Assembly: GCF_000444995.1 (NCBI RefSeq) | Contig: NC_022041.1 | Location: forward strand, 2,144,001 to 2,208,000 | Origin: Paracoccus aminophilus JCM 7686 | GTDB taxonomy: Bacteria > Pseudomonadota > Alphaproteobacteria > Rhodobacterales > Rhodobacteraceae | Direction of reading: 5' to 3' | Length of the DNA: 64,000 nucleotides | Part shown: positions 23,243 through 51,610 of the stretch, in pieces | How positions within the stretch are numbered: the stretch's first letter is position 1 | Layout of the letters: each line of letters opens with the position of its first letter | Notes under the pieces: model-generated | Seen by the model: only the letters and a program-made list of their open reading frames with translations | Database searches by the model: none | What the model was told of the DNA's origin: nothing | Program-made: the position numbers and the translations under genes

Positions 23243-23995
23243 TCACGGCAGCGCAATCGCGCTCAGCACATAGCCCTCCTCGCAGCGAAGCCGGCCGCGG
23301 ACCGTCCAACCTTTGGAGAAGGGCGGCAGGTCACAGGTCAGGGTCGCGCGAAATCCCAGCAAATTTCCCGAGAGATCACGCGAAATCACCACCGAGGCCG
23401 CGTCGAACCAGAACATCTGATTGACCAGCGGATAGAGGCATTTGAAAAGACTCTCCTTGGCCGAAAAGATTGCCGTGACATGCAGCGCGCGGATCGCGGG
23501 CACCCGTGGCAGGGCGTGAAGCTCTGTCGGACAGATCTCGGCCTCGATCTTGCGGGCTTGTTCCGGCTCCATGACGCGGTCGATATCGACCCCGATGCTG
23601 CGAAACTGGCTGGCCGAGGCGATCAGTGACACCGCCCTGCCCCGCGCATGTGAAATCGAGCCGACCAGCCCCCGCGGCCAATGCGGCGCCGCCTCGGCGG
23701 GACCGGGCGGCACCGCATAGGGACGCCCTGCCTCATCGCTAAAGCGCGACATCGCCACCCGGGCACAATAACGCCCCGCGGTATAGTCGGATTTGCGCGA
23801 GACCGCCGTCTGCCGCAACACGCTGGGAAGCGGCAGGTCCAGAGCCGAGGCCATGGCCTCGGAAAAGGCGCCGACATCATAGCGCACCAGCGCCGATGAG
23901 ACCGAGGGGCCGAGCAGGGATTTCCCCGGCAGCTCCTCAAGGAAGGCGCGGGTGACGGGCGGGGCCGCTGTGAGTTGGCTTTCGAGTGATCTCAT
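23243..23995 (-). CDS. 4'-Phosphopantetheinyl transferase, EntD/Sfp type
   Basis: This enzyme would move phosphopantetheine from CoA onto the carrier-domain serines of the PKSs and the free ACP. The 250-residue protein has the three signatures of EntD-like enzymes: GSISHARGRAVSL, SIGVDIDRVMEP (Mg-binding acidic pair) and FSAKESLFKCLYPLV. The start at 23995 overlaps the SRPBCC gene stop as ATGA. It is the last gene of the twelve-gene operon, which supports a dedicated role in activating this pathway. Confidence 0.93.
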   Translation of the reverse strand: MRSLESQLTAAPPVTRAFLEELPGKSLLGPSVSSALVRYDVGAFSEAMASALDLPLPSVLRQTAVSRKSDYTAGRYCARVAMSRFSDEAGRPYAVPPGPAEAAPHWPRGLVGSISHARGRAVSLIASASQFRSIGVDIDRVMEPEQARKIEAEICPTELHALPRVPAIRALHVTAIFSAKESLFKCLYPLVNQMFWFDAASVVISRDLSGNLLGFRATLTCDLPPFSKGWTVRGRLRCEEGYVLSAIALP

Positions 23996-24465
23996 CTTGC
24001 GCCAACCACCGCAAGCGGTGCCTCCTGGTGTGCGTCGCCCTCGCACCGGCGCCGCAGCGCCTCGTTGAAGGCGAGAAAGGCCGGTTGCGTGCGGCGCACC
24101 AAGGTTTTCCACAGCAAGGGCACCAGAAGACCTCCGAACCTTTCGCTATGCGACAGACGGGTTCCGCCGCCCGGAAGCGGGGACAAGGTGAACCGATGCT
24201 CACCCGAGAAGATCCACGAGCCGCCGAGCATCCCGCGCCAGATCAGCTGGCGCGGTGCTTCGCGCGCAAGGATGCGCGGTTTCATGGTGACCTCGCCGCC
24301 GCCGTCGTTGAGCCGGACTTTCACGGTATTGCCCGGCGTCACATCGCCCTCGACGGCAAGAATGAAGGTGCTCCATTCCGAAAAGCGGTCGAAGTCGGTC
24401 AGCACCTGCCAGACCGCGGGGATCGGCGCGTCGATGTCGATTGAGGTTTCAATTGTTCTGGCCAT
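23992..24465 (-). CDS. SRPBCC (START/Bet v1-like) family protein
   Basis: This 157-residue protein has the helix-grip fold pattern of SRPBCC proteins: it begins MARTIETSIDIDAPIPAVWQ, continues VLTDFDRFSEWSTFILAVEGD, and has a C-terminal amphipathic helix. Members bind hydrophobic ligands, and some act as polyketide cyclases or aromatases. In this operon it might bind or cyclise the polyketide product, but no catalytic residue can be named. The start codon overlaps the thioesterase stop by one base (TGATG). Confidence 0.8.
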   Translation of the reverse strand: MARTIETSIDIDAPIPAVWQVLTDFDRFSEWSTFILAVEGDVTPGNTVKVRLNDGGGEVTMKPRILAREAPRQLIWRGMLGGSWIFSGEHRFTLSPLPGGGTRLSHSERFGGLLVPLLWKTLVRRTQPAFLAFNEALRRRCEGDAHQEAPLAVVGAR

Positions 24466-25274
24466 CAGTCTACGAGCTCCACGGATTGTGTCACGGGTTG
24501 ATCGTTGAGCGCCGTGCCCCGAAAACCGGGGTCGCCAAGCGCAGTGAGGTCGCGCGCGATCTGGCGACCAAGCCGCGCGCAACTGTCATCGGTGAAGTAG
24601 AAATGGCCGCCGTCGAAGCGGCTCAGATGGAAGGGGCCGCCGGTTTCAAGCGCCCAGTTCTCCATCAGCGCGGGCGGCGCCCAAGGGTCGTCCACCGCGG
24701 CATAGGCATGGATCGGACAGCCGAGGATCGTGCGGTCCGGCCGGGCGCCATAGCTGTCCACGGCGGTAAAATCCGCGCGCGCCAGACGCAGGAACATCCG
24801 AACGAACTCGGGCTCCTGCAGGACGCGCTCGGGCGTCCCGCCAAGCTCGAGCATCGTGTGCAGGAACTCGTCATCGGGCAGAAGGTGCAGGCGCGAGGCG
24901 CGGGGCGCGACTGTCGGCGCTTGCCGCCCCGACACCCCAAGCCACAGCGGAGGAGTGCCGTCGCGGGTCAGCTTGCGGGCAAGTTCCGAGGCGACAATCG
25001 CCCCGAGACTATGGCCAAAAAGCGCAAGCGGCAGCTCACCCGTCAGCTCGCCAAGATCGCGCGCAACCTGCGCGACCATCTCGCTCATCTGGTCGATTGG
25101 CGCCTGAGCATAGCGCCGCCCTCGGCCGGGAAGCTCATGCAGGACGACATCCACATCTTCTCCCATCTGCTTGACGATGTTGAAGAATGTGCTTCCCGAC
25201 CCGCCCGCATGGTGAAACATCACCAAACGCAAACGCGGGTTTTCGACGGGGCGGGGGCGCAGCCAGGCGGTCAT
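24465..25274 (-). CDS. Type II thioesterase
   Basis: This 269-residue discrete alpha/beta-hydrolase of the GrsT/RifR type removes aberrant acyl groups from carrier domains. The catalytic Ser89 sits in ALFGHSLGAIVA, the Asp in YAAVDDPWAP (about 195-196) and His224 in FDGGHFYF. The N-terminal FHHAGGSGSTFF is the usual oxyanion loop. It overlaps the last PKS gene as ATGA. None of the PKS proteins carries an integrated thioesterase, so this is an editing enzyme, not the obvious release enzyme. Confidence 0.92.
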   Translation of the reverse strand: MTAWLRPRPVENPRLRLVMFHHAGGSGSTFFNIVKQMGEDVDVVLHELPGRGRRYAQAPIDQMSEMVAQVARDLGELTGELPLALFGHSLGAIVASELARKLTRDGTPPLWLGVSGRQAPTVAPRASRLHLLPDDEFLHTMLELGGTPERVLQEPEFVRMFLRLARADFTAVDSYGARPDRTILGCPIHAYAAVDDPWAPPALMENWALETGGPFHLSRFDGGHFYFTDDSCARLGRQIARDLTALGDPGFRGTALNDQPVTQSVELVD

Positions 25275-27646
25275 TCTGCCGCCTCCAGAACCGGAGCCGC
25301 GCGGACGTGCTGGCTGATGCGCGCGAACATCTCCGAGAGGGGGATGGTCGCATCGACGATCTCTGGCGGCACCTCGACCTGAAGCTTCTGCTCGACCGCC
25401 TTTTTCAGCAGCATCGCGATGAAACTATCGCCGCCCGCCGCAAGGAACGTGTCATCGAGATCAAGCGGATCCTCTGCCCGAAGCAACGAGACCAGCTCGG
25501 CATGGACGAAATCGGTGATCTCATCCGCGCCCGCATCAAGCGGCCTGTCGCCCGCGTGCCGCGCGGCCTCGGTCGCGGTTTGCGTGGCAAATCGCGGCTC
25601 GTCGATCCAGTAGCGGTCGGCGGCAAAAGGATAGGTGCCAAGTCCGCCGTCGAGCAGCACGCCTTGGGGCCGCAAAGCGTCGAACCGCAGATCCGCCCCC
25701 GATTGGAAGAGCGCGGCCAGTGCCTCAAGCAACTGATCCCGCAGCCCCTCGGCCTCGAGCGCGACCGAGGTGTCCCCCCATTGCAGGCTCACGCCCGGGG
25801 CGTCGCCGCGATGCAGGCGCAGACGCGGGATGAGCCGCGCCAGCGCCTGATGAAGCCGGGCCGCCGGATCCGCCTCATCGGCATGGAGCGCCAATGCCGG
25901 GAAGCTCGCGACGAGGGCGCCAAGCAGGGCCACCAGCGCGGGCGTCTCTGGCCCGACCGTCAGACGAAACCGCGTGGGCGCCGCCTCGGTCGGGACATGC
26001 TTGGCGGCTTCCAGCGCCGAAGCGATCGCCTCGGCAGAGTGGCCCACCACCGCGACGCGGCAGGCAAGCAGCGCACGGCCGCTGCGCGTCGTATGGGCGA
26101 GGCTTGCAAGCCCCGCTTGTCCCAGCACCCGCAGCCGCGCGGCGACCTGACGGGCCTGCTGCGTCAGCTCAGCGGGATCGCGGGCCGAGACCACGACCAG
26201 CTCGGCGCCAGTCTCTGTGGCACCAATCTCTGCGGCAGCGGGCAGATCCTGCTTGGGCGGCGCTTCAAAGATCGCATGGGCATTCGTGCCGCTCAGCCCG
26301 AAGGCCGAGATCCCTGCGCAGCGGCGGGCATAGGCCTCGGGCCAAGGCGCGGTCTGACGCGAGACCTCGATCTGGGTCGAGGCCCAGGGGATCGCGGCGG
26401 AAAGGGCGCCGTCGCTCTGACGCAATGCCGCCGGGATCAGGCCTTTGTGCAGGCACATCACTAGCTTGATGACACCGGCAATGCCCGCCGCAGCCTCAAG
26501 ATGGCCGATCCGCGATTTCACATTGCCAAGCGCCAGCCGGGCGGGCCGCGGCCCGGCCCCATTGCCGAGCACGGCATCCAGCGCATTGACCTCGATCGGA
26601 TCGCCCAGAGAGGTGCCGGTGCCATGGGCCTCGACATAGCCGATCTCGGCGGGGGCCACGCGCGCGTCCTGCAAGGCCGCCGCGATCACGTCGCGCTGTG
26701 CGCGCCCGTTCGGCACCGTCAGACCAGAGGAGGCCCCGTCGTGGTTGGTCGCGGTGCCGCGCAGCACCGCCAGCACCGGGCGACCCTCGGCCTGAGCGTC
26801 CGCCAACCGCATCAGCGCCAGACAAGCGACCCCCTCGCCCCGGCCATAGCCATCGGCATGGGCGGTGAAGGTCTTCGAGCGACCGTCCGGGGCCAGCGCC
26901 CCCGACTGGCAGAGCGACACCATCAGATCGCCCGAAAAGAGCAGGTTCGCCCCGCCGACCAGCGCATAGCGGCATTCCTCGCGCCGCAGGCTCTGGGCCG
27001 CGAGATGCAGCGCGACCAGCGACGACGAGCAGGCAGTATCTACGCTCAGCGCCGGGCCCGAGAAGCCCATGGCATAGGACACCCGCCCCGCGGCAAAGCA
27101 ATGCCCGCCGCCGGTCCCGAAATAGGGGTCAATCGCCGTCTTATCGGCCTGCCCCGAGCGGCGCTCGCCATATTCCGAGGCCATGATCCCGACGAAGACC
27201 CCGACCGGCAGGCGGTCACTGCGCCGAACGGCAATGCCCGCGCGCTCCATCGCCTCCCATGCGGTTTCGAGAAGCAGGCGCTGCTGGGGATCCAAGGCCT
27301 CGGCCTCGCGTTTCGACATCCCGAAGAAGCGGGCATCGAAGCGATCGACATCGGCCAGAAAGCCCGCGCGATTGACATAGGATTTGCCGGGCGTCTCGCG
27401 GCGCGGGTCATAGACCCCGCGCAGACCGGGACGGTTGTCCGGGATCTCGGAGATCACATCGCGGTCGCTGGTCAGCAGATCCCAATAGGCCTCGGGGGTG
27501 GTGATCCCGCCGGGCAGGCGCAATCCGAGGCCGACCACCGCAAGCGGCGCGCTGGCTTTGTCCTCCAGCTGCTGGATATGGGCCTTGAGGCGACGGGACA
27601 AGGCAAGTTGCTGTTCAACGATGGGTCGCAGATCTTGGGCGCTCAT
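25271..27646 (-). CDS. Type I PKS, terminal module KS-[AT remnant]-ACP
   Basis: This is a 791-residue single-module polyketide synthase. An N-terminal coiled-coil-like docking segment (1-30) precedes a complete KS (about 34-465) with the triad C206 (DTACSSSL), H341 (EAHGTGT) and H382 (IGHLEAAAG). The next stretch (about 480-685) has AT flanks, a decayed AT start, and the post-AT linker TYPFAADRYW, but no GHSxGE active site: about 120 residues replace a roughly 300-residue AT. The ACP (about 705-775) has its serine at S741 (LAAGGDSFIAML). No KR, DH or TE is present, so the product would stay a beta-ketoacyl-ACP. It overlaps both neighbours as ATGA. Confidence 0.93.
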   Translation of the reverse strand: MSAQDLRPIVEQQLALSRRLKAHIQQLEDKASAPLAVVGLGLRLPGGITTPEAYWDLLTSDRDVISEIPDNRPGLRGVYDPRRETPGKSYVNRAGFLADVDRFDARFFGMSKREAEALDPQQRLLLETAWEAMERAGIAVRRSDRLPVGVFVGIMASEYGERRSGQADKTAIDPYFGTGGGHCFAAGRVSYAMGFSGPALSVDTACSSSLVALHLAAQSLRREECRYALVGGANLLFSGDLMVSLCQSGALAPDGRSKTFTAHADGYGRGEGVACLALMRLADAQAEGRPVLAVLRGTATNHDGASSGLTVPNGRAQRDVIAAALQDARVAPAEIGYVEAHGTGTSLGDPIEVNALDAVLGNGAGPRPARLALGNVKSRIGHLEAAAGIAGVIKLVMCLHKGLIPAALRQSDGALSAAIPWASTQIEVSRQTAPWPEAYARRCAGISAFGLSGTNAHAIFEAPPKQDLPAAAEIGATETGAELVVVSARDPAELTQQARQVAARLRVLGQAGLASLAHTTRSGRALLACRVAVVGHSAEAIASALEAAKHVPTEAAPTRFRLTVGPETPALVALLGALVASFPALALHADEADPAARLHQALARLIPRLRLHRGDAPGVSLQWGDTSVALEAEGLRDQLLEALAALFQSGADLRFDALRPQGVLLDGGLGTYPFAADRYWIDEPRFATQTATEAARHAGDRPLDAGADEITDFVHAELVSLLRAEDPLDLDDTFLAAGGDSFIAMLLKKAVEQKLQVEVPPEIVDATIPLSEMFARISQHVRAAPVLEAAE

Positions 27647-30600
27647 TTGTGCTTTCCTTCTGTCCAGTTGAGCTCGTCCTGCACCGCAGCCAGCAGATCG
27701 CTCATGCTGCGGTCGGTCAGGTTTTCCGTGTCAGGTTGCGAGGGAGTTGGGGTTGCGGTCTGAGTCTTGATGGGCGTTGTCGTCTGGGCCAGAGCCGCGG
27801 CGGGCGCGGGTTCGATCTGGCCAAGACCGGTCTCGGCGATGAATTCCGCCAATTGGGCGACCGTGGGATATTCGATGGCCACAGTCGCGGGCAGATCGTG
27901 ATCGAGCGCATGGTTCAGCTGGGCGCGCAGATCGATTGCCATGATCGAGTCGAGCCCCAATTCGACAAATCCGGTGTCGTGATCGATTGGGCTCTCGTCG
28001 CCGAGGTTTGCGCAGACCAGACGGGCCAGCGCCTCGCGCAGGCTGTCGATGCGGTCCTCGGCAGGCTCGGCCAAAGCCAGATCGCGCAGCCAGCCCCGCG
28101 CCGCTTCGGTGACCTCGGTCTTGCGCGGGGTCGTGACTTCGCCCGCATCCAAGGCCGAGAGGAAGGACGCGCGGCTTTGCGCGCCGAGCTCGGCCCGGTA
28201 GCGGGCGAAATCCGCCGCCACCGCCACCAGACGCCCGGATTGCCCCGAAGCTGCGATAGCCACCAGCTCTGCTGCTTCGGCATCGTTGAGCGGGCGGACG
28301 CCATAGCGCGCCGCAGACCGCAGGACGACATCCGAGGCCGCCATCCCGCCTTTGGCCTCTGGCACCCAGGGACCCCAGGCGACGGCGCAAGCTTGCTTGC
28401 CGCCCGCGCGAAGTGCTTCCGCGAGGCCTTCCAGATAGCCATTGGCTGCGGCGTAGCTGACCTGCCCCGCCGAACCGAGCACGCTCGACACCGACGAGAA
28501 GAAGACCAGCCGCACCTCGGCATCGTCGTGAAGCGCACGCGCCAGCACCTGCGCGCCCCGCGTCTTGGCGTGGAAGACCCGGGCGTAGGAGTCCCGGTCG
28601 ATGCTGTCGAAGGCCATGTCGTCATTCGCACCGGCAAGGTGGAAGACGCTGCCGAGCTTGCCAAAGCTGCGCGCAGCTTCGATGGCGGCCTTCACGTCAA
28701 GTGCATTGGTCACGTCGCCCTGCACGATACGCAGCGGAATGCCCTGCGCGGCGATGCGGTTGATGACCTCTTGCGCAATCGCATCGGGTGCGCGCCGTGC
28801 CATCAGGACGATCCCCGCCGCACCGGCATTGGCCAGCATCTCGGCGGTGCTGAGACCCAGCGCGCCAAGCCCGCCCGTGATCAGCGCCGCGCCTTGCGGC
28901 AGGCCCTCGGGAAGGGTGACGGCGGCGGGCAGAAGACGCTCGACACGCAGCCCGTCAGAACCGACCGACAGGCGATTTTCCTGCGGCACGGCCAGAACGG
29001 TCTCTGCCAGGGTCTCGATGGCGGCATCTGCCCCGATCTTGACCCGCACCAAGCGGCGATCGCTCTGCTCGGCCTCAAGAGCAGAGAGCATCCCCCAAAG
29101 TGCGGCCCGCAGCGGGCTGGCTTCGGGGCTACCGTCGACCAGCAGGATATAGGGCACCGCATGGGGCACATTGCGCAAGGTCTCGGCCAGCAGCGCCACC
29201 GCGTGCTCGACATCTTCAGCCGCGACACCATCGACCGAAGCAAAGCGCGCGTCGACAATGCGCAGCCCCTCGGTCGCGGGATCACTCGCCTCTGGCAATT
29301 GGTCGAGCCGCGTGGTCACGCCCCGCGCCTCAAGCGCCGGGACCAGATCGTTGAGCAACGGCACGCCATCGGTCAGAAGGCGCAGCTCGCGCACGCTTTC
29401 GTCACGGGCCGGGCGGCTGTCCGGAGCCACGAAAACCGGCTCATAGGCATGTTTCGGCGGCTTGCGCAGCCCATGCTCCAGAACCGCGCGCGGGGCATGG
29501 CGGACGCGGAAGGTGTCCGCGCTGAAGACCGGCTGACCATCGGCATGGAACATCGCCAGATCGGCGGTCTCGACCCGCAGGCGGCCATTCGGCAGAGGAT
29601 CGGCCGATTTGATCCGCACATGCCCCCACAGATCCGCCGCCCCACGCGGGCGCCCGGCAAAGGCCAGACGGCGCGCGGCAAAGGGAATGGCCAGCGAGGG
29701 CGCTTCCTCGGCATGATCATCGACCATGAAGCCCGCGATGCTTTGGAAGCAGCTGTCGATCAGGCCCGGATAGATCTCATAGGCTGCGGGATCGTCAGGC
29801 AGCTCGGGCTGGGCATAGCGGATCAGCGCCTCTTCGCCGTCGATCCAGACATCGGCAATCCAGCGGAAGGAGGACCCCAAAGTATAGCCGAGCGTGCGGA
29901 AGTAGGCGTAAAACTCCGCGCCGGAGATGTGACGCTCTGCCCCCGCGATGAAGGCCTCGCGGTCAAGCATCGGCGCAAAGGTCGCACCATTGTCGCTGAG
30001 GCGGCACATGGCATGGGTCTGCCAGGTTCCCGTCTCGGCATCGATCAGGCTTTGCACCGAAAGCTGCGGCTTTTCGCCCGCGCCGGTGATGATCTGCGCG
30101 TCATAGCGTTCCCCGTCGAGGATCACGAGCGCCCGCGGGCAGACCAGATCCTCGATGGCGACCGGCGTCCCGTCCCGACCGAGCGCCGAGAGGATGGTCG
30201 CCAGATGCGAGGCGACCGGGGTCACCACCGTGCCGTAAAGCCGGTGATCGCCGAGATAGGCCGGGAAGTTGCTGTCGCGCTCGAACTGGAAGACGCGGCC
30301 GGGCAGCGCCGGAGACAGCAGTTCCGCACCCCAATGGCGCCGCGTCTCGACCCCGCGCACGGCCAAGGCCGGTTGCGGCGTGATCTGGGTCCAGTATTCG
30401 GTCTTGGCAAAGGGATAGAGCGGACCATCCCCGCGCCGCGCCTGAAGCGCGCCCTGAACCTTGGCCCAATCGAAGCTCTGGCCCCGGTCATAGAGATGGG
30501 CCACAGCGCCGAGCAGGGTCGGGCGCTCGGCCAGACCGCGACGCAGCGAGTTGGTCATGCCGCCCTCGGGCATCAGCCCGGCCGCGCGCATCAGGCTGAC

Positions 30601-36555: not shown

Positions 36556-36609
36556 AAGAATGATCCTTTTCAGGCGGATATGAATTGGTTGGGAAGGTGG
36601 GGGCCGCGA

Positions 36610-42600: not shown

Positions 42601-42804
42601 TTCGATGAAGCCGCCGACGGCCTGAACATGCTTTTCGGGGTCGAGCTGCCGAGTGGCATCCCAGCGATCAGCCGGGATCGGGCCGATTGCAAAGCGGCCT
42701 TCGTTTAAGAGCGACCACAGACTGTCCATGTCCGGGGCGCCGGGAAAGCGGCCAGCGATGCCGACCAGAGCGAAAGCGGAGTTTTGGGGAGCGAGAAATG
42801 TCAT
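36610..42804 (-). CDS. Type I PKS, fully reducing module KS-AT-DH-ER-KR-ACP
   Basis: This is a 2064-residue synthase (numbered from the chosen ATG at 42804). KS at about 10-425 has an unusual active-site context, VETGCSSAM (C174), with H309 and H350. AT (about 533-835) has S628 in VGHSQGE and YASH at 728-731, the methylmalonyl-CoA signature. DH (about 915-1170) has H924 in a motif whose Gly is replaced by Glu (HKVHEATVFP) and D1088. ER (about 1380-1690) contains LIHSAAGGLGLAAIQ. KR (about 1705-1890) has LITGGLGALG, LDD and Tyr1855. ACP serine is S2019. No loading domain precedes the KS, so the starter must come as an acyl thioester. The start one base after the hydrolase stop is preferred over one 45 bases upstream. 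Confidence 0.93.
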   Translation of the reverse strand: MTFLAPQNSAFALVGIAGRFPGAPDMDSLWSLLNEGRFAIGPIPADRWDATRQLDPEKHVQAVGGFIEGVDQFDPGFFGISPREAEDIDPQQRLMLEASWTALEDAGIRPETLRGSRTGVYVGASWHDYEILRKERGLHASQHTAVGNALDVIAARLSYFYGLTGPSLTVETGCSSAMVALHLAAKALATGEIDAAFVGGVNLILAPDVSIGLTRFGGLSAKGRCSAFSEEADGFVRGEGVVALYLKRLDQAQADGDRIHAVIAGTGVNNDGGGDSLVTPSPAGQEDLLTTIYTGSGLNPDKLVYVEAHGTGTKVGDPIETGAIGRTLAARRDPSKGPLAIGSVKTNIGHLEATAGLAGLAKAVLAIRHREIPASLHSESLNPAIDFDGLGLEVVRAPKTLPEGSDFLIGVNSFGWGGTNAHAVLAPPPEAVRPVAEEADTTQGPVFLPLSAQNADRLRARAADLAALVAESDLRLDDIAATLAHHRSHFAERAGFVGSDRATLAEALTALAEDRELAGLSDQHAEPQTAKTKGRVAFVFPGQGSQWAGMGAQLIQQSPVFAARIADCAAALRPYVDWDLEALIRGDLGSDWVERVDQVQPALWAMKVALSEVWRAQGIIPDVVVGHSQGEVSAATVAGILSLDDAARIVALRSQIIRRNAGKGGMLSVDMSLEEARAQLEGFEDSISIAVNNGPSSCVLSGDIEALETLQTLLDADEVFNRLVKVDYASHSHHMDEFKEELHGVLVGIEPKAGEVTFFSTVDLEAKAGTDLDPTYWVRNLREPVQFFGAMSALFDDGVTHVIEVSPHRALLPSLQQIAALRDDPAIALSTMQRDRDTVEDVLGMCARAYVAGLMPMGQRPQGALVDLPAYPWQRQSFWAAKARPQGAARKGLEVSLIPSPAEQDAWEGLVDISAEDNPWLADHKVHEATVFPGAGMVALMLAAGRQRFGALPRRLRGVQLLADLTLGEEPRRAALMLRDTLSAGGDVALASLPEGATDWVTHATAIVEQMLPPTAAPICPEALDAADAVTPDDFYAACTARGLSYGDAFRGVTALQVASDEALGQITLPQPCTASARAHGLHPALLDSALQVTLALESAEATVVPVAIDEIRLFIDPEAPITAVSVHARRNGDKRFDLDLFTAEGQPLAAIIGLQLETLVLDTSADADERLHRLAFIPETRREKTEAARVWLIAGSTGAEALAGALTGLGATAALGDAPGEHHTAVAFVAPDAEAGLDAQKAAIMALAQLVRACAAQSQAPRLAVITTQAQAQLYSGIADPGAALFWGFVRVLRREHPELEPIVIDMAPGSEAEVAAELHGWSGDDQVVLAGEIRLVGRLKRGAPDRASEDETVKTAWQLPAQPFRLVSGAAGYYDELEYRPLQRSAPGKGEVEVEISAAALNFIDVMKAMGTYPGLDARSARLGGEFAGIVVAVGEGVTGLTPGERVVGCGFGAFASHATVPSAHVRPIPQGMSDAEAAALPLVMTTAWYGLVDLADLGTGETVLIHSAAGGLGLAAIQVARMLGAEIIATAGSKEKREMLRAMGIEHVFNSRDLSWAEKVREVTKGRGVDVVLNSLTGMAIPLGLEALAEDGRFIEVGKKDIYAGRTINLSAFRKRLSIASVDIAGLMEKRVARFGRLLGDVWAAVADGDLTPLPILPYSFAAAGEALRTMGKGDHIGKFVLTDPASVTNIAPAPFTEGELRGDGTYLITGGLGALGLSLAEHMAARGAGGLALLGRSAAKGEALTRIEALRAQGVAVRSFAVDVSDRAALAEVLAKIRAEMPGLRGVVHAAGLLDDALIDNMTEDQLARVLAPKIDGALALDALTEDDPLDLFVLFSSAAALFGNAGQAAYAAGNAGLDALAEARRARGKPALSVQWGPFADIGLAAADAIRGDRLDERGMGNFSAEDGWLALTRLLQQGETVSGFVPINLRLWFDAYPDTAALPSWSLLLEAARGNTQASNGAQAFRAELEAAPAESRDELAEAKVRELAGRVLRMDPQAIGRETPFKALGLDSLMGLELRNRLEVAFGLKLSPTLLWTYGNTKAIAPVLVERVFEVAA

Positions 42805-42805
42805 G

Positions 42806-43933
42806 TCAAACCCTATCGAGGCCGTGAAAAAGGGACGGCTGCACGTCAAAGCGCAGGCGCAAGAACGATTGAACGAGGCGACTGGCGACCGAGCGCCCGC
42901 AATGTCGCAACACCATGGTGAGGATGATCAGGCGCAGGGCGGGCAGGCTGTTGGGCGCGCCATGCACATCGTCGAAGCCATGCACCCGGAGATTGGGAGC
43001 GTCTCGCGCGACCTCGGCCCATTCCGATACGGGAATGATCTCGTCGCGCTCGGCTGCAAGATAGAGAACCGGGGTCTTCAGCCGACGCATCTCGTCGGGC
43101 TGAATGGCCAGATCGGGAAGGCGATCCGGCAGGGTCTCTACCGGAATGCGCATGGCATGGGCCAAGGCCAGGCGCGTGATCAGCGGGATGTCGGTTGCAT
43201 CCCCGCGCGCGGCCTCTTGGAAGCACGCCCGGATCGGCGCACCGACCGTGACGATCTGGCGAATGCGCGGATCGCGGATTGCCTGCAGCATGGCGAGATG
43301 GCCGCCAAAGCTCGGCGCGACGATCAGCGTGCGGCGAACATCGCATCTCTCCGCCACCGCATCCATGATCGCGCCATAGATCCCGGCAGCCGCGCGGTCA
43401 TAGGGCACCTCATTGCAGCCGACCCCGGCAAAATCCGCGATGGCCACCGCGCAGCCAAGCTTGCGCCCGAGGTTCAGGAAAGCGCCCCATTGCTCCTTCA
43501 GAGAGACGATGCCCCCCATCAGGATCAAAAGCCCTGCCCGCCGGTTGCGCGGCTCGCGAAAGAGAACGGAGAGGCTCTTGCCGTCAAGCTCGACCTGGAT
43601 GCGTTCGCCGCGATCGAGCCGTTCGACATGCTCACCGAAAACCTGAGCGGCGGCCTGCTGGGCATAGATCTTGGCCGGGGTATCAGCGACGGGAAAGCGC
43701 GCCAGATTGAAGAGATTGGCCGCCTCGACGGGCTTTTTGGCTGCATCCGCCGCAAGGGCTTCGCCGGTGAAGACCGACACCCAGGAGGATGCCCCCTCGC
43801 CCGAGAGCGTCGTGATCCGCTCAAAGAGCCGCGCGATGCGTCGGTCGTCAAAGCCCATGTGGCGCGCGTGAAGCGTGACGAAACCGCGCGCCTCCTGCAG
43901 CGCCTGATCCATATGGGGAAGGTCATGCCGCAT
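42806..43933 (-). CDS. Alpha/beta hydrolase, probable tetronate acetate-eliminase (Agg5/AbyA5-like)
   Basis: This is a 375-residue alpha/beta-hydrolase-fold protein with an N-terminal helical extension (about 1-125). The nucleophile elbow is IVAPSFGGHLA (Ser208), with candidate Asp297 (AAERDEII) and His324 (DDVHGAPN). In tetronate pathways (Agg5, AbyA5, ChlD4) such a protein eliminates acetate from the O-acetylated hydroxymethyl tetronate to give the exocyclic methylene. Assignment here rests on fold, size and its place with the other four cassette genes. The Met at 43933 lies inside the end of the FAD gene (11-base overlap); a later Met seven codons in is possible. Confidence 0.75.
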   Translation of the reverse strand: MRHDLPHMDQALQEARGFVTLHARHMGFDDRRIARLFERITTLSGEGASSWVSVFTGEALAADAAKKPVEAANLFNLARFPVADTPAKIYAQQAAAQVFGEHVERLDRGERIQVELDGKSLSVLFREPRNRRAGLLILMGGIVSLKEQWGAFLNLGRKLGCAVAIADFAGVGCNEVPYDRAAAGIYGAIMDAVAERCDVRRTLIVAPSFGGHLAMLQAIRDPRIRQIVTVGAPIRACFQEAARGDATDIPLITRLALAHAMRIPVETLPDRLPDLAIQPDEMRRLKTPVLYLAAERDEIIPVSEWAEVARDAPNLRVHGFDDVHGAPNSLPALRLIILTMVLRHCGRSVASRLVQSFLRLRFDVQPSLFHGLDRV

Positions 43934-45257
43934 TCGTTCTGACCTCTTCGCGAAAGTTCTGATGCGCGGGCGCGACCGGCGCAAAGCCGTCAGCGGCATC
44001 AACGGGCGCGCCGATCGGCGCCAGCCGCTCAAGCATTGCGCGGTATTCCGGCGCCTGACGCAGCGCGTGCGGCGCGTTCATCATCCGGTCCAGCACCTTG
44101 TATTTGACCGGAGAATGGTTCAGCAGCCGCATCTTCAGACGCCGCAAGAAGGTGCCGAAGCGGGTGCCCTGCGCCAGATTGCCTTCCTGCATCCGCTGGA
44201 ATTTGGTGATCATGGCCTTGTGGCTGCGCCGCTTGGCGATCACCGCCTGAAGCGCCGAGGCGGGAATGACATCCGTGCTGTCAGCCAGGGCCTGATAGAT
44301 CGCGGGCGCGAAGGAGACAGCATCCTGGATCGCCAGATTGACGCCCTGCCCCAGCACCGGCGTCACCGTATGGGCACTGTCGCCGATCAGCAAAAGCCCG
44401 TCGCGGCTCCATTGCTCCATCTCGGCGGTGAAGATGTCGAGCAGCGTGACATCGTCCCAGCCCCTGATATGGGTGCGGACCAGATCGGCCAGACGCGGAT
44501 CGAGCGCCGCGACGCTGTCTTGGAACAGCGTGATCCCCTGTTCGCGCTGGTCTCGGAAGCCGCCCTTGGGCACATTGTAGCCCACGCGCAGCAGGTCGGG
44601 CCAGGTCGGCAAGATCACCAGATGACGATCACCGCGCGCCACGAGCTGCGAGGTGTGTTGCCAATTCTCGGGACGCGGCAACTTGAACCAAAGGAAATCG
44701 CGCTCCATCGGCGTGATCTTGGCCTCAAGCCCCGAGAGTTTGCGCATCCGCGAAAAGCGCCCATCACAGCCGACCGTCAGACGCGCGCGCAGCTCATAGG
44801 GCTCGCCGCCCGACCTGCGCAGCATCGCGCCTTTGACCACGCCGTCCTCTTCGATCAGCGACAGGAATTGCGTGCCGGACAGAAAGCTAAAGCTCGGCGC
44901 GCTGCGGGCCGCCTCGATCGCCACGCCCAGAAGCTGCGGCTGCGGCATGTCGATCGGCAGTTGGCCGATGGGGAAGCGGCTATAATCGGCCGACAACAGC
45001 GTCCGGCCATTTTCGCGAAATGCGATCCCCTCGAGCGGCAGATAGCCCGCCTGTTTCAGACGATCGCCATAGCCGAGATCCTCCATGATTTTCACGGAAA
45101 GCGCGGCGACGGTTTCGCCCCGGAACGAGCGTTCGGCGGTCGCGGCGCGTTCAGCCAGGGTCACACGGATGCCCTGACGCGCCAGGACATCGGACAGGAT
45201 GGCACCCGCCGGCCCCGCGCCGACGACAAGAACGTCCGTATCAAAATGATCGGTCAT
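43923..45257 (-). CDS. FAD-dependent oxygenase, PHBH-like
   Basis: This is a 444-residue group A flavoprotein. It shows the dinucleotide fold DVLVVGAGPAGAILSDVLAR (residues 8-27), the DG motif VGCDGRFSRMRK (about 168) and the FAD ribityl-binding GD motif LLLIGDSAHTVTPVLGQGVN (about 288-307). Such enzymes hydroxylate or epoxidise; in spirotetronate clusters related flavoproteins (PyrE3 type) have instead been recruited as [4+2] cyclases forming decalins. Which applies here cannot be told from sequence alone. It lies between the acyltransferase and hydrolase genes, one base after the former's stop. Confidence 0.88.
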   Translation of the reverse strand: MTDHFDTDVLVVGAGPAGAILSDVLARQGIRVTLAERAATAERSFRGETVAALSVKIMEDLGYGDRLKQAGYLPLEGIAFRENGRTLLSADYSRFPIGQLPIDMPQPQLLGVAIEAARSAPSFSFLSGTQFLSLIEEDGVVKGAMLRRSGGEPYELRARLTVGCDGRFSRMRKLSGLEAKITPMERDFLWFKLPRPENWQHTSQLVARGDRHLVILPTWPDLLRVGYNVPKGGFRDQREQGITLFQDSVAALDPRLADLVRTHIRGWDDVTLLDIFTAEMEQWSRDGLLLIGDSAHTVTPVLGQGVNLAIQDAVSFAPAIYQALADSTDVIPASALQAVIAKRRSHKAMITKFQRMQEGNLAQGTRFGTFLRRLKMRLLNHSPVKYKVLDRMMNAPHALRQAPEYRAMLERLAPIGAPVDAADGFAPVAPAHQNFREEVRTNAA

Positions 45258-45258
45258 C

Positions 45259-46011
45259 TCAGTTCTCCCAGGTTTCAAGTCGATGTTTGATGTCCGCCAG
45301 CAGATCCGCCGCCAGCGCGCCGTCGAGGACGCGGTGGTCGAAGGCCAGAGACAGCGTGAACTGCGGCGCGATGGTGATTTTGCCGTCGCGCACCACCGGG
45401 GTGGCGGCGATCCGGCCCATGCCAAGACCGATGGGCGTGGCGATCATCGGCAGGATCGAGCGCACATCGCGGTGCCCGACCGAGGTCACCGAGAATGTCC
45501 CTTGAAAGCGGGCGCGGCGTTTGGGGCTGGCCAGCAGCAGGTTGTAGATCAGCCGAACCGCCGGCAGCGGCAGGCGGCGCAGCTTCCACAGGGCCGCAAA
45601 CGGCCCCTCAGCGGCAATCGGCGCGGCCTTGTAGTGATCGACCTGCGACTGGATGACGGCGACCGAGGCCTTGTCGGGCGCCTCGACCGTGCCCGAGGCG
45701 ACACAGCGCGTGCCGTTGAAATCCTTGTCGAAAAGGACCTTGGCGGTCACGCCGTCCATCGTCACCATGCGCGGCCGCAGCCCGTCGCGCAGCGTGGTCC
45801 GGGCGGCGGAATGCTTCGCCAGCACCTCGGCCGCGGCCTTGACCACATAGGAAACATAGCTGATCTCGGCATTCGCCCGAGCGCGCGCGGCTTGCAGCGC
45901 CGTTGTATCGACATCCGCCGTCAGGAAGACATGTGCGGTGTTGCGCGCGTCGCGCAGGAAGGCATAGGTATGCGCCCGCTCTGCCGGAAAGGCCGCCGCC
46001 CGCGCGGTCAT
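45259..46011 (-). CDS. E2-like acyltransferase, probable tetronate acetyltransferase (Agg4/AbyA4-like)
   Basis: This 250-residue protein consists only of the catalytic domain of 2-oxo-acid dehydrogenase E2 (chloramphenicol-acetyltransferase fold). The active His226 and Asp230 lie in FDHRVLDGALAADLL. There is no lipoyl or peripheral-subunit-binding domain and no E1 or E3 gene nearby, so it cannot be part of a dehydrogenase complex. Stand-alone E2 catalytic domains are the known acetyltransferases (Agg4, AbyA4, ChlD3) that acetylate the tetronate hydroxymethyl group before elimination. It overlaps the ACP gene as ATGA. Confidence 0.85.
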   Translation of the reverse strand: MTARAAAFPAERAHTYAFLRDARNTAHVFLTADVDTTALQAARARANAEISYVSYVVKAAAEVLAKHSAARTTLRDGLRPRMVTMDGVTAKVLFDKDFNGTRCVASGTVEAPDKASVAVIQSQVDHYKAAPIAAEGPFAALWKLRRLPLPAVRLIYNLLLASPKRRARFQGTFSVTSVGHRDVRSILPMIATPIGLGMGRIAATPVVRDGKITIAPQFTLSLAFDHRVLDGALAADLLADIKHRLETWEN

Positions 46012-46253
46012 GACGCCACCTCGACCGGCTCGACCGTCAGCTGCGCCAGCTGGCCAAGCGTCTTGCAGGCCATATAGGCGTTGTAGTCGAGCTTGGCCCC
46101 GATCTCGCGCTCGAGAAACACCAGAAGGCGCAGGGCATTGACGGAATCCCACCCTTCGATTTCTTCGAAACGGGCTTCGGGGGTCAGGCTGGTTTCATCG
46201 AGGTCAAGCAGGTCGACAAGTGCTTCGTTCACGATGGTCTGAGTGATCATCAT
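46008..46253 (-). CDS. Discrete acyl carrier protein for glyceryl transfer
   Basis: This 81-residue ACP would carry the glyceryl unit made by the FkbH-like enzyme. The phosphopantetheine serine is in IEGWDSVNALRLL. The GWDS context is typical of ACPs paired with FkbH proteins (Agg3, RkF, AbyA3) and differs from the LGLDS of the PKS domains here. Two consecutive ATG codons (46253, 46250) follow an AGGAG site embedded in the end of the FkbH gene; the first is five bases past that stop. Coupling to both neighbours is tight. Confidence 0.9.
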   Translation of the reverse strand: MMITQTIVNEALVDLLDLDETSLTPEARFEEIEGWDSVNALRLLVFLEREIGAKLDYNAYMACKTLGQLAQLTVEPVEVAS

Positions 46254-46258
46254 CGGTC

Positions 46259-48127
46259 TTACTCCTCTTCTGTCGCTGTGATTTGGTCGGGCACCGGCAG
46301 GATCTCGTGCAGGTCGTGGCACCAGCCCTCGCCTGCGGGCCGGAAGCCCATCTCGTCGTAAAACGTGGCGCAGCGTCCGTTCTTGGCGCTGGCGACATAG
46401 CGGCCCGTCACCGCAACCCGGCCGCGACGGCGGGCGCCGTTCAGGATCAGGGACATGACGGCTTCTTCGACCCCACGCGAAAAGGCGCGGCAGCTGAGGA
46501 CGACATTCTCGATCTCGGAGGTGCCATCGGCGTGATCGATCATCGTGACCGCCGCGATCAGCCCGCTGTCGCCGAAACGATCGGTAAGACGCGCACCCCA
46601 GCTCCGGCGCGAGCCGTCACGCAGCTCGCTTTCGGCGTAACGCTTCTGGGTCAGGTTGAACTGGTTGGTCTTGCCGAAAAGCTGGGTGATCCGGGTGACG
46701 TTCAATTCCCCCAGCGGCTCAAGGACGAGATGCGAGTCGAGCTTGCGCAGGTACTCCTCAAGACTGATCCCGACGGCAGCTTCAGCGCGGTCGGTTTGCG
46801 CGCGATAAAGCGCGGTCCGCTGGCGGTCCTCGTCAGTCAGGCGCAGAAGATTGAAGGCACCCGACGCCGCCAGAGCACTGGCATAGCCCGAGGGCTCATC
46901 GGCGAGTTCGATGGTCTGAACCTCGGGCAGGAACTCGCGCATGGCGCCGCGTTCGACCGGGTGGTCATCCATGAAGACAAAGGCATCGGTCCCGATGTTC
47001 AGGCTCTTCGCCTGCGCCTTGAGGTTTTGCGCCTTCGGCTCCCAATTGGCGGTGATCAGCGACAGATCGCGCGCGCCGAGCACCATTTCGGGATGCTCCG
47101 TCAGCGCGCCGCGCGCCACGCCGTCGTCATTCTTGGAACAGACGGTCAGGATAACGCCCTGTGCGGCATAGGATTTCGCGAGGGTCTGGAGCTCGTGATG
47201 CGGCGTGCCCGGCCACATCCGGCCCAAAGCGAGCGCGCCGACTCCGACATCACCAACCACCCCGCCCCAAAGCGTATTGTCGAGATCAAGCGCCAGCGCC
47301 TTCCGCGCCATGCCGAGATCGGCCCGGGCGATCCGCGTCACCTCTTCGGCATAGGCTGCAAGGAATTCGGGTGCGAAAGCCATGCCTGCGGCCTGCCTCA
47401 TACGGTCGGCGGCATGGCAGGTCCCGGCGCTTTCGGTCAGGATCGCTGCGTCCAGCACCGAGACGCCCTCGGCGCTTTCGGCCAGATCAAGGAGCGCCGC
47501 ATTCATGCGCGCCCAGGCTGCCGAAAGCCGGGCCCGTCCAGCGTAATCGAGCAGATGGCCCGCGCGCCGCCGCGACAAAGGCACCGTCGCCAGCACCACG
47601 CGTCCGCCCGCCAGCGCGCGGCAACGCCGCACCCAATCGGCGACTTCGGCGGCGAAACCGGCGCAGCGCGCCTCAAGCGCATCGACATCATGCGGCACCG
47701 TCACGCCCGAAAAGACGGCCTCTTCGTCGAGCAGGCACAGCGTCAGGCGCGGCTGGAAGGGCGCCAAAGCGGGCGCGCCAGTCATGATCTCGATGCGCCA
47801 TTGATCGAAATCGCTGGTCAGAAACCGGCCCAGAATGCCCTCGCGCAGCAGCATGGCCTGCAAGAGATTGGGCACCATATTGAGCGTCGAGCTGCCCAGC
47901 ACCGCGATACGCTGTTCGCGCAGCCCGGTGATCGCAGCAAGCTGGTGTTGCAGCTTTTCCCCCGCGAGCAGGCTGCCAGCGGCGTCGAGGTCCAGAGGAT
48001 CCGAGATCTGTGTCAGCAGCGCGCGCAGCGGCGCGAGATCGGGGCCAATCCCCGCGCGGCCCAGCTGGCGCAGGCGAGACAAGGGGCGGACCGGGCCGTC
48101 GGTCGCGATGGGCTGAATGTCATTCAT
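46259..48127 (-). CDS. FkbH-like glyceryl-ACP synthase
   Basis: This 622-residue HAD-superfamily enzyme takes 1,3-bisphosphoglycerate, dephosphorylates it and loads D-glycerate as a thioester on the partner ACP. An N-terminal SGNH-like region (about 60-265) precedes the HAD domain with nucleophile D281 and acid D283 in ALDLDNTLWGG, the K365 region, and the metal acids in FMDDHPVER (387-388). Then comes the family signature FGKTNQFNLTQKRY (about 484-497) and a GNAT-like C-terminus. The ATG at 48127 follows GAGGAG. It corresponds to Agg2, RkE, AbyA2 and ChlD1 in tetronate clusters. Confidence 0.93.
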   Translation of the reverse strand: MNDIQPIATDGPVRPLSRLRQLGRAGIGPDLAPLRALLTQISDPLDLDAAGSLLAGEKLQHQLAAITGLREQRIAVLGSSTLNMVPNLLQAMLLREGILGRFLTSDFDQWRIEIMTGAPALAPFQPRLTLCLLDEEAVFSGVTVPHDVDALEARCAGFAAEVADWVRRCRALAGGRVVLATVPLSRRRAGHLLDYAGRARLSAAWARMNAALLDLAESAEGVSVLDAAILTESAGTCHAADRMRQAAGMAFAPEFLAAYAEEVTRIARADLGMARKALALDLDNTLWGGVVGDVGVGALALGRMWPGTPHHELQTLAKSYAAQGVILTVCSKNDDGVARGALTEHPEMVLGARDLSLITANWEPKAQNLKAQAKSLNIGTDAFVFMDDHPVERGAMREFLPEVQTIELADEPSGYASALAASGAFNLLRLTDEDRQRTALYRAQTDRAEAAVGISLEEYLRKLDSHLVLEPLGELNVTRITQLFGKTNQFNLTQKRYAESELRDGSRRSWGARLTDRFGDSGLIAAVTMIDHADGTSEIENVVLSCRAFSRGVEEAVMSLILNGARRRGRVAVTGRYVASAKNGRCATFYDEMGFRPAGEGWCHDLHEILPVPDQITATEEE

Positions 48128-48139
48128 GGCACGCGCTCC

Positions 48140-49159
48140 TCAGCCGTGAACCAGGGCCATGCCGGCCATGATCCATTTCGACGATTCGACATTGGCGACG
48201 AAGGCGCGGGTCGGCTGGCCGTCGCCCTCTTCGGCGAGGCGCTCGGCCAGGCGGTTCATCTGGACGAAAGGCAGCGCGTTTCCGTTGTTGCCGGTCACCG
48301 AAACGCAGGACACCGCCTGCTCTTCGGTGACGTTGAGGCCAACGCGCAGCTTCTCGGTCATCACCCCATTGAGCTGCGGCAGCAGGATGTGATCGACCTC
48401 ATCAAGCGGCCAGCCCTGCTTGCTTTCCAGTTCGGCGAGAATGGCCTGGGTGATCTCGGGGACATGGCGCTCGATCGCCTTATAGTCCTCTTCGCCCATG
48501 GCCTCGCCCTCGGCGGCACCCTCGGCGCCGAACCATTTCACGACCTGCGCCGGTTTGCGGCCAAGCCCGATGCCGCGCAGGAACAGATGCTCGACCTTGA
48601 AGCCCGGCCCTTCGGTCCCGGCCTCACAAGCCGCGGCTCCGGCGCCGTCGCCGAACATCGCGAAGTTCACCATCTCGGCTGGCTTCATCGATTTCGCGTC
48701 GCGGTTGGAGGGCCACATCTTGATGCAGGTGTCCGCACCGATCACGAGGCCGCGGGTATGACCGCTTTCCAAAAGCGCGCGCGCCGCAAAGAGGCCCTGC
48801 AGCGCCCCGGCGCAGCCAGAGGTGATCTGCAAGGTCGGCACGCCGTTGATGCCCAGCCGGTCGGCGACGAGGTTCACCGTCGCGGGCATCAGATGATCCG
48901 GCGAGGCCGTCGTCAGGATCAGGAACTCGACCATCTCCGGCGTCCAGCCCGATTTGTCGAGCACGCGACGCCCCGCCTCGGTCGCCAGATCGCTGGTGCT
49001 GCGCGGCACGTCCGGCGCGCTGTCCTCGCGGCAGAAGAAGCGCTGACGATTGCCGGTCATCTGGTCGAGCCACTGCGCGTGCAGCCCAAACTTTTCAGCC
49101 AGATCGGCATTTGTGACCGGGGTGCCGGGAAGGACCTCGCTAAGAGCCAAAATCCGCAT
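48140..49159 (-). CDS. KASIII-like ketosynthase, probable tetronate-forming enzyme (RkD/Agg1-like)
   Basis: This 339-residue thiolase-fold protein is related to FabH. The nucleophile is C116 (QITSGCAGALQGL), and MFGDGAGAAA is the usual dimer-core glycine motif. The catalytic His normally in PHQAN is absent: the segment reads LLPQLNGV with Pro261 in its place, while an Asn is kept in VTGNNGNA. In RK-682 and agglomerin biosynthesis the homologue joins glyceryl-ACP to a beta-ketoacyl-ACP, making both the C-C and C-O bonds of the ring. The start at 49159 has an AGGTGG ribosome-binding site; it is the first gene of the operon. Confidence 0.87.
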   Translation of the reverse strand: MRILALSEVLPGTPVTNADLAEKFGLHAQWLDQMTGNRQRFFCREDSAPDVPRSTSDLATEAGRRVLDKSGWTPEMVEFLILTTASPDHLMPATVNLVADRLGINGVPTLQITSGCAGALQGLFAARALLESGHTRGLVIGADTCIKMWPSNRDAKSMKPAEMVNFAMFGDGAGAAACEAGTEGPGFKVEHLFLRGIGLGRKPAQVVKWFGAEGAAEGEAMGEEDYKAIERHVPEITQAILAELESKQGWPLDEVDHILLPQLNGVMTEKLRVGLNVTEEQAVSCVSVTGNNGNALPFVQMNRLAERLAEEGDGQPTRAFVANVESSKWIMAGMALVHG

Positions 49160-49239
49160 GTTCCACCTTTTCGCATTGATGTCTGTTGACGCCATCAGGC
49201 TTGGAAAAGGCCTTTCCCTCAATTTGGAGGTTCTCTTTA

Positions 49240-49252
49240 CGGGGTTTCCCCG
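49240..49252 (-). promoter_or_regulatory. Dyad promoter element upstream of the PKS operon
   Basis: The plus strand reads CGGGGTTTCCCCG, a perfect dyad of 5-bp arms around TTT. Its core GGGTTTCCCC (49242-49251) recurs upstream of luxI at 50156-50165. The distance from core to start codon is 83 bases here and 82 there. It is a candidate operator or promoter box shared by the two units; LuxR binding is inferred, not shown. Confidence 0.55.
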
Positions 49253-49353
49253 GGGGGTCGGGCCGCGGCATCCCCGAGACGGCGCAATCCAAAACCATCG
49301 CCGAACCATTTGATATGTTTCGGCTTTTACCGGTCCAATGGCGCAGGAAACGC

Positions 49354-49390: not shown

Positions 49391-49420
49391 CTGGTCGGAT
49401 GGAAAGCGGCTGCGCCGAGA

Positions 49421-50074
49421 TCAGGCAGCCATCAAGAGCGGGGCCGCCATCGGCTCTGCCAGTTCGAGCGATCTTCCGTTCATCAGCTTGGGGTCAATCA
49501 GCGCACGGCAGCGGTCGCGAATACCCGACATGATATCAAATTGCAGCGCCACCGATTTTCGCCCCGCGATCGGTTTCGGGGCGCTCAGACGCTGGAATTG
49601 GCAGCCCGATTGGCGCAGCAGCCGCTCCATTCCCAAATAGGACAGCGAGACATAGTTTTTCACCTTGTTCTGCAATCCATATTCCATGAGCCCCCAGATC
49701 AGCACGCGCAGATAGGCGCTGGCCCCATTGCACCGCGCCGCATCCGGGCAAACCGCCAGCCGCGTCACCTCAAAGACATTCGACTGCCGGGGCGCCGCTT
49801 CATCCAGCATCCAATCAAAACAATCGCCCAGCAGATAGGGCAGATTGGTCGGCAACAAACGCAGCCCCGCTACGATCTTTCCGTCGATGCCGCGATGCAG
49901 CATATAAATGGCGTTTTCGGTATCGAACTGATCAACCTCATGCGTGTCGCAGGGCGACAAACTCGGCATGTCCCACCCCAAACGCTCGCGAAAGATCTGA
50001 TGGCGGAACTCAAAGAAATCATTGATATCTTCGTGGCTTGCGTGAGTTTTGGTGCAGTCGATCAGTTGGATCAT
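49421..50074 (-). CDS. N-acyl-homoserine lactone synthase, LuxI family
   Basis: This 217-residue enzyme makes an acyl-homoserine lactone from S-adenosylmethionine and acyl-ACP. It shows the invariant residues of the family: Arg, Phe and Trp in FRHQIFRERLGW, the acidic pair in VDQFDTENAIY, Arg in VAGLRLLPT, and Glu with Arg in VFEVTRLAV. The ATG at 50074 follows GGGAG; upstream codons have no family character. It lies directly upstream of the PKS operon on the same strand but ends in its own terminator. Acyl chain length cannot be read from the sequence. Confidence 0.93.
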   Translation of the reverse strand: MIQLIDCTKTHASHEDINDFFEFRHQIFRERLGWDMPSLSPCDTHEVDQFDTENAIYMLHRGIDGKIVAGLRLLPTNLPYLLGDCFDWMLDEAAPRQSNVFEVTRLAVCPDAARCNGASAYLRVLIWGLMEYGLQNKVKNYVSLSYLGMERLLRQSGCQFQRLSAPKPIAGRKSVALQFDIMSGIRDRCRALIDPKLMNGRSLELAEPMAAPLLMAA

Positions 50075-50155
50075 CGGAACGCTCCCGTTTGCGCATTTGA
50101 TGACCGGGATGATTGCTGCGATTGCACAATCGGAATATTCGGCGGTCCCCCACAA

Positions 50156-50165
50156 GGGTTTCCCC
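50156..50165 (-). promoter_or_regulatory. Promoter element shared with the PKS operon, upstream of luxI
   Basis: The plus strand reads GGGTTTCCCC, identical over ten bases to 49242-49251 in front of the KASIII-like gene. On the minus strand a second weakly similar block (ACC-N-CC-N-AAT) follows about 15 bases downstream of both copies. It sits 82 bases before the luxI ATG. Confidence 0.5.
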
Positions 50166-51601: not shown

Positions 51602-51610
51602 AATCACGTC

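Follow-up and report, generated by a model that had tools for sequence, protein, structure and literature searches.

Gene content of a twelve-gene operon in Paracoccus aminophilus points to a small 5-methylidene tetronate and to an apparently orphan operon family in two phyla

The tetronate ring is present in several antibiotics, and a stretch of 64,000 nucleotides from Paracoccus aminophilus JCM 7686 (the window; C1:2,144,001-2,208,000 of a 4.87 Mb genome in six contigs) raises the question of whether this alphaproteobacterium has an operon that makes one. Twelve closely packed minus-strand genes, all with open frames in a program-made list of open reading frames (ORFs), run from 49,159 down to 23,243 over ~26 kb. 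A sequence-only reading of the window had described this run, named its protein kinds and proposed a tetronate product. All of those families are recovered by Pfam or, for the FkbH-like protein, by NCBIfam TIGR01686, and the proposal is supported by a match of the alpha/beta hydrolase to AbyA5 (2e-48), a 248-residue alignment of the E2-like acyltransferase and a terminal polyketide synthase (PKS) module of beta-keto type. The product is very probably a small 3-acyl-5-methylidene tetronate, a conclusion in which reactions, product and regulation are predicted. The ORF list begins some genes too early; likelier starts are given with the operon's features:

48140..49159, minus strand: KASIII/FabH-like predicted tetronate synthase, AbyA1 type, 339 aa (PF08545; Cys116 invariant in 15/15 aligned)
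46259..48127, minus strand: FkbH-like HAD glyceryl transferase, AbyA2 type, 622 aa (TIGR01686; DLDNTLW and CSKN motifs)
46008..46253, minus strand: stand-alone acyl carrier protein (ACP) with GWDS, AbyA3 type, ~80 aa (PF00550; translation)
45259..46011, minus strand: lipoyl-less E2-like acyltransferase, AbyA4/Agg4 type, ~250 aa (PF00198; HxxxDG)
43923..45257, minus strand: class A FAD monooxygenase, ~444 aa (PF01494, FAD_binding_3)
42806..43933, minus strand: alpha/beta hydrolase, AbyA5/Agg5-type dehydratase, ~375 aa (PF00561; AbyA5 match)
36610..42849, likely ATG start 42804, minus strand: PKS1, KS-AT-DH-ER-KR-ACP (domain search)
27643..36555, minus strand: PKS2, KS-KR-ACP without acyltransferase (AT), then KS-AT-DH-KR-ACP (domain search)
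25271..27646, minus strand: PKS3, terminal KS-ACP without AT or reductive domain (domain search)
24465..25274, minus strand: type II thioesterase, TEII (PF00975)
23992..24465, minus strand: SRPBCC / polyketide cyclase-like protein (PF10604; co-occurs with the hydrolase)
23243..23995, start uncertain, open frame to 24112, minus strand: 4'-phosphopantetheinyl transferase, PPTase (PF17837, PF01648)

The likeness in kind and order to AbyA1-A5 that had been read from the sequence is borne out, as KASIII-FkbH-ACP-E2-[FAD oxygenase]-hydrolase matches the abyA1-A5 order except for one extra gene between the A4 and A5 equivalents. The available text of PMC4979870, PMC7489565 and PMC3625739 describes the roles of these five proteins, and that of PMC3625739 shows that abyssomicin AbyA1-A5 of Verrucosispora maris are this set in this order, at comparable sizes (341/622/78/251/355 aa). 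For abyssomicin, feeding of [1,2-13C]glucose succeeded in tracing the C3 unit (PMC3625739). The sequence-only reading had counted best matches of the hydrolase or E2-like protein to unrelated metabolic enzymes against a tetronate. The hydrolase has AbyA5 as its best PDB match at E 2e-48, with a runner-up at only 0.0026, and its Ser208, Asp297 and His324, which would form the catalytic triad, align with identical AbyA5 residues and are invariant in 8/8 family members aligned. For the E2-like protein, each of the 34 PDB matches is to a metabolic E2 or a fusion derived from one and covers only its last 68–85 residues, but it aligns over 248 residues at 37.5% identity, with the shared motif HRV(L/I)DG, to the E2 of Streptomyces abyssomicinicus (L087; related loci are given by L numbers), a locus taken as abyssomicin-type from species name and gene order. 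It comprises the PF00198 catalytic part only, has no lipoyl domain and keeps HxxxDG in 21/21 rows. Identities to the same S. abyssomicinicus locus are 41.6% over 339 columns for KASIII, 37.1% over 612 columns for FkbH, 33.1% over 359 columns for the hydrolase and 34.8% over 46 columns for the ACP.

KASIII has 5by7 as its best PDB match (1e-79), which the S. abyssomicinicus KASIII matches at 1e-150. Its Cys116 and GN(N/S)GN are retained in all 15 aligned relatives, and the stretch at the FabH His-motif position reads PQL(N/G)G (PQLSG in 5by7); condensation without decarboxylation would presumably not need the FabH His. By these features a FabH-like enzyme of the tetronate type is present, and its ring-forming activity is predicted. 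FkbH scores 275 bits against TIGR01686 (cut-off 146.65), and Pfam assigned it no family. The window FkbH has the DLDNTLW motif, which is found in 14/21 rows. The CSKN Cys is Ala or Ser in 8/21 rows (L026, L027, L030, L032, L034, L035, L036 and L037) and Val in S. abyssomicinicus, in cassettes that otherwise lack nothing, and the Cys is therefore not required for the family. The stand-alone ACP (PF00550) adjoins FkbH and has the GWDS serine.

Pfam resolves PKS1, PKS2 and PKS3 into four modules, two of them AT-less, in a module order that follows the gene order; this gap was not in the sequence-only reading, nor were the luxI, luxR and phytase-like genes that adjoin the operon. The last module, PKS3, has no reductive domain, and the chain therefore should keep the beta-keto group needed for a tetronate ring. 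The AT gap is not a single-genome quirk, because the same two modules are AT-less in all four operons examined by Pfam (window, Methylosinus, Palleronia and S. narbonensis) and the motif GHSxGE gives the same picture, absent from PKS3 in 14/14 and present exactly once in PKS2 in 13/13. PKS lengths, some counted from the match start, are near-constant at 2053–2095 for PKS1 (n=8), 2931–3028 for PKS2 (n=13) and 787–802 for PKS3 (n=14). YASH, which we take to be the methylmalonyl signature, occurs in the PKS1 AT in 6/8, and HAFH, taken likewise as the malonyl signature, in the PKS2 AT in 12/13; the remainder gave no pattern match. The PKS1 KS reads VETGCSS(A/G/S) in 8/8, and PKS2 and PKS3 have DTACSSS instead. 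No free-standing AT encoded with the PKSs was found among eight AT matches genome-wide, none of which is a short frame inside the window; the only short-frame match (320 aa, C1:1292340) is FabD-like by size and lies outside it. Elsewhere in the same genome, a second type I PKS locus (G000 C1:960378-983226; L003, L006, L008) gives five KS and three AT matches and has a first KS-AT 49% identical to PKS1; the genome yields only one FkbH at 1e-30.

Taken together with the unreduced terminal module, which is common to both, the AbyA5 match makes abyssomicin the natural comparison. The window differs from it in the FAD monooxygenase between the A4 and A5 equivalents, in having four modules instead of seven, in its AT-less terminal module, and in a KASIII that falls in a clade apart from that of S. 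abyssomicinicus. Agglomerin, whose producer we take to be Pantoea, differs in that the window cassette is accompanied by a dedicated type I PKS and the FAD enzyme. The window is likened to agglomerin by description: Agg1-Agg5 include the acetylation-elimination pair that gives a 5-methylidene tetronate (PMC4979870, available text). Tetromadurin Mad7/8/16/17/18 of Actinomadura verrucosospora form the same five-gene glycerate-utilisation set as in the window, although tetromadurin is an actinomycete polyether ionophore with a far longer assembly line (PMC7489565, available text).

The predicted pathway would begin with transfer by FkbH of the glyceryl group of 1,3-bisphosphoglycerate to the GWDS-ACP, while the chain built by PKS1-PKS3 would end unreduced as a beta-ketoacyl-ACP on PKS3, a neighbouring AT or FabD presumably loading the AT-less modules. 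KASIII would then link the glyceryl unit and the chain by C-C and C-O bonds, so that the ring closes and the chain is released. Acetylation of the 5-hydroxymethyl group by the E2-like enzyme would be followed by elimination of acetate by the AbyA5-like enzyme, leaving the exocyclic methylene. The FAD enzyme may hydroxylate or epoxidise the electron-rich acyl-tetronate or the chain, and the methylidene product may be a substrate of the SRPBCC protein. Collinearity and the AT signatures predict -CO-CH=CH-CH2-CH(OH)-CH(CH3)-CH2-R as the acyl part, where R stands for any starter and two extender units are left unspecified because their modules have no AT.

The operon apparently belongs to a conserved family across Alphaproteobacteria and Actinobacteria, an orphan in the sense that no product was found here. 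A KASIII protein search scored 7,999 candidates and gave 501 relatives, 120 of them listed; a scan of a species-genome collection kept the best 80 of 330 KASIII relatives, so that weaker members are uncounted. A quick-method KASIII tree of 82 rows contains a 21-row clade (SH-aLRT 100) made up of the window, Methylosinus plasmid pOB3b3 and 19 loci, with members in both Alphaproteobacteria (Palleronia, Allorhizobium, Methylosinus trichosporium OB3b) and Actinobacteria. When KASIII, FAD enzyme and E2 are joined in one tree, the seven alphaproteobacterial rows group together (100/99). The FAD monooxygenase occurs in 20/20 related loci of the clade at 47–76% identity to the window copy, but also near KASIII outside it at 37–50% (L039, L040, L044, L051, L081, L082, L090, L097), and is therefore not a mark of the clade alone. 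A near-full-length PKS3 homologue (52–74%) is found in all 14 genomes searched (of 19 loci). Plasmid pOB3b3 of M. trichosporium OB3b (L101, record 100331-132214) carries the whole operon, annotated, between IS6 transposases, with RHS-repeat genes flanking, an ABC transporter set, a helix-turn-helix regulator and no luxI there. These uncharacterised operons, from pOB3b3, Palleronia caenipelagi, Allorhizobium, Nocardiopsis, Streptomyces and others, share with the window the cassette, the FAD enzyme, three PKSs whose sizes hardly vary between operons and the AT-less modules; they differ in other regulators and transporters, and hydrolase and SRPBCC were not found in the actinobacterial members except Nocardiopsis. 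Literature on 8UIU, acyltetronate, Methylosinus, RK-682 and Frankia/Nocardiopsis/Rhizobium gave no family product, and full-text searching for tetronate combined with FkbH and Proteobacteria, alphaproteobacteria and polyketide, or Paracoccus gave no paper, most subscription journals lying outside the scope of both. PMC11964084, on methanotroph gene clusters including M. trichosporium, does not have the word tetronate in the available main text.

At least 100 bits of similarity to the AbyA5-like gene are found at 8/20 related loci, and at a ninth (L034) the gene is a fragment cut by a contig end; all nine are alphaproteobacterial or Nocardiopsis. A hydrolase profile search of 14 whole genomes found six at 5e-185 or better, two weaker on other contigs (1e-68, 1e-74) and none at 1e-20 in the other six. 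Weak matches upstream in L028, L029 and L031 (28–30% over 125–164 residues) were not counted as AbyA5-like. An SRPBCC gene accompanies the hydrolase at 7/7 hydrolase-bearing loci, against 0/7 hydrolase-lacking loci with the downstream side read, the latter only to ~1–4.5 kb past TEII. The two genes each change once and on the same branch; this is therefore one event and weak evidence of joint function, and we rejected the co-occurrence as strong functional evidence. Among hydrolase-lacking actinobacterial members, KASIII-like genes lie nearby in L026:6895-9899 and L115:18000-19856, and an acyl-CoA-dehydrogenase-like gene lies nearby in L041:5804-7702, with another at L028:6871-8652 below the cut-off.

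Several observations weigh against a 5-methylidene tetronate. The AbyA5-like gene was not found at 11/20 related loci, all actinobacterial, though the E2 is kept, and the E2 there therefore cannot serve that elimination alone. A long branch (1.34 on the clade's side of the midpoint root) parts the 21-row clade from the 61 other rows, among which the S. abyssomicinicus KASIII sits, and the clade's substrates could therefore differ. The window has both the KR tyrosine motif in module 1 of PKS2 and the second DH motif in PKS1, but simple patterns did not find the former in 4/13 relatives or the latter in 5/8, and the reductive pattern may therefore not be uniform across the family. The two AT-less modules also leave the extender units uncertain. 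The E2 distribution speaks for a 5-hydroxymethyl or acetoxymethyl tetronate of RK-682 type, in which E2 and hydrolase act otherwise and acetylation may have its own use in the family; this is unlikely for the window, which has both enzymes, the expected residues and the known order save for the inserted FAD gene. Further from the evidence, FkbH and ACP could supply a hydroxymalonyl or methoxymalonyl extender unit and no tetronate, as the available text of PMC7489565 assigns the FkbH-like Mad14 of the tetromadurin cluster. We regard this as extremely improbable, because none of the twelve genes is the dehydrogenase of that pathway or an O-methyltransferase and a tetronate-type KASIII is present. 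Finally, the cluster could be silent or decaying, since the view here is of genes only and no other carrier was seen among the same-genus genomes sampled; the twelve open frames, the catalytic motifs kept in the window and the synteny with Palleronia from PPTase to LuxR make this quite unlikely.

The sequence-only reading had left a choice between a 5-methylidene and a spirotetronate-type product. The former is well supported by gene content (acyltransferase and AbyA5-type dehydratase), whereas the latter, in which the exo-methylene and a chain diene would undergo [4+2] cycloaddition with the FAD enzyme or SRPBCC protein as cyclase, did not stand and is very unlikely. What speaks for it is the co-occurrence of SRPBCC and hydrolase, which is one evolutionary event, and the presence among the FAD enzyme's matches of PyrE3 and of ChlE3, the latter presumably a flavin [4+2] cyclase as TedJ and PyrE3 are. 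TedJ and PyrE3 are described as flavin-containing [4+2] cyclases in the available text of PMC12380092. The match ranking opposes a Diels-Alderase role, the FAD enzyme being nearer to hydroxylases than to spirotetronate cyclases (Bacillus niacini monooxygenase, 8uiu, 3e-38; ChlE3, 2e-9; PyrE3, 1.6e-8), and its model is likewise nearest to the B. niacini flavin monooxygenase. PyrE3 and ChlE3 are not among the 50 VIA matches listed for the enzyme, which proves nothing by itself. Collinearity predicts one alkene and no conjugated diene in the chain, although iteration is possible. All twelve operon genes fall in other families, which leaves none over for a VstJ/AbyU-type spirocyclase, with no direct search for VstJ/AbyU proteins made. 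A spirotetronate is unsupported because there is no predicted diene, no spare gene for a spirocyclase and no nearest relationship of the FAD enzyme to ChlE3 or PyrE3.

Directly upstream of the operon, at 49421-52430, luxI and luxR lie on the minus strand with a divergent phytase-like gene between them; these genes and two candidate regulator sites are:

49421..50074, ATG at 50074, open frame to 50284, minus strand: LuxI-type acyl-homoserine-lactone synthase (PF00765)
50363..51601, plus strand: phytase-like esterase gene inside the block (PF13449; syntenic in Palleronia)
51654..52430, minus strand: LuxR-type regulator (PF03472 and PF00196; syntenic in Palleronia)
49241..49251, minus strand: candidate LuxR site, GGGGAAACCCC dyad ~82 bases before KASIII (pattern devised after sighting)
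50155..50165, minus strand: GGGGAAACCCT, same motif as the KASIII-side dyad, before luxI (pattern devised after sighting)

In Palleronia caenipelagi (L021) the block from PPTase through LuxR recurs with its gene order unchanged, luxI and the phytase-like gene included, and the window luxI is 63–68% identical to the Palleronia copy. The GGGGAAACCC-like motif lies ~80 bases before KASIII and before luxI in the window and ~57–94 bases before both in Palleronia, and is a candidate LuxR site by conservation only. The form GGGRAAANCCY gives four matches against 0.5 expected in the window and three (two overlapping) against 0.12 in L021; it was devised after the sites were seen, and 2/4 window matches (23,917 and 51,791) are inside genes. 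The 13-base palindrome CGGGGAAACCCCG with up to three mismatches was discarded, as it occurs at chance-like frequency (50 matches in the window for an expected 40, and 11 in L021 for an expected 11). A promoter scan of 48,900-50,500 found no sigma-70-like site; a hairpin with a T run after luxI (49,390-49,351) was seen by eye and was not flagged by that scan. LuxR relatives without luxI matches are near the operon in L022 and L023 (38–39%). Quorum-sensing control of the operon is likely on this arrangement, with LuxI/LuxR switching it on at high cell density.

The operon looks horizontally acquired, and the alphaproteobacterial setting that had been read for the window holds, with the adjoining purL at 83.6–84.5% identity to its five best matches in a plasmid collection, every one of them from Paracoccus. 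Similarity to the window ends at 23,015-23,109 in 8/8 same-genus purL regions, purL itself ending at 23,127, and the block therefore seems to begin there. A full-length cassette-type E2 was not seen in 36 same-genus genomes, in which matches are the catalytic end of longer E2 frames (at most 45% over ~80 residues) or longer stretches at 26–33%. FkbH at 1e-30 or better occurs in 1/60 other same-genus genomes (G075), with the rest of the cassette not in the locus seen; this genome was rejected as a second tetronate carrier because its 4,761-base locus gave no KASIII, E2 or hydrolase match. That FkbH-like gene (L118, G075 C4:78013-79773; 38–39%) has a weak ACP match beside it and perhaps belongs to another FkbH pathway. 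For the phytase-like gene, a search of 30 other genomes (18 same-genus) gave nothing at 1e-20. A tRNA-Thr (TGT) at 53229-53304, just past luxR, is a possible island edge.

A broader picture is possible, though less likely than not: a so far undescribed oxidised small tetronate family of Alphaproteobacteria and Actinobacteria in which neighbour ATs would serve the two AT-deleted modules, a flavin hydroxylase related to a 2,6-DHP-binding enzyme would oxidise the tetronate, SRPBCC would cyclise the exo-methylene product in alphaproteobacterial and Nocardiopsis members, and the product, in Palleronia and this genome, would be a signal or antibiotic under quorum-sensing control. With luxI/luxR alongside, induction of the operon could be tried by simple means. 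If the tetronate assignment is true, acetylation-elimination tetronates reach Alphaproteobacteria, including Methylosinus trichosporium OB3b and Allorhizobium, which would offer tractable Gram-negative hosts for tetronate chemistry and a natural, conserved set of AT-less modules with a tetronate-associated flavin hydroxylase to study. The variant gains further interest from being a whole conserved family in two phyla.

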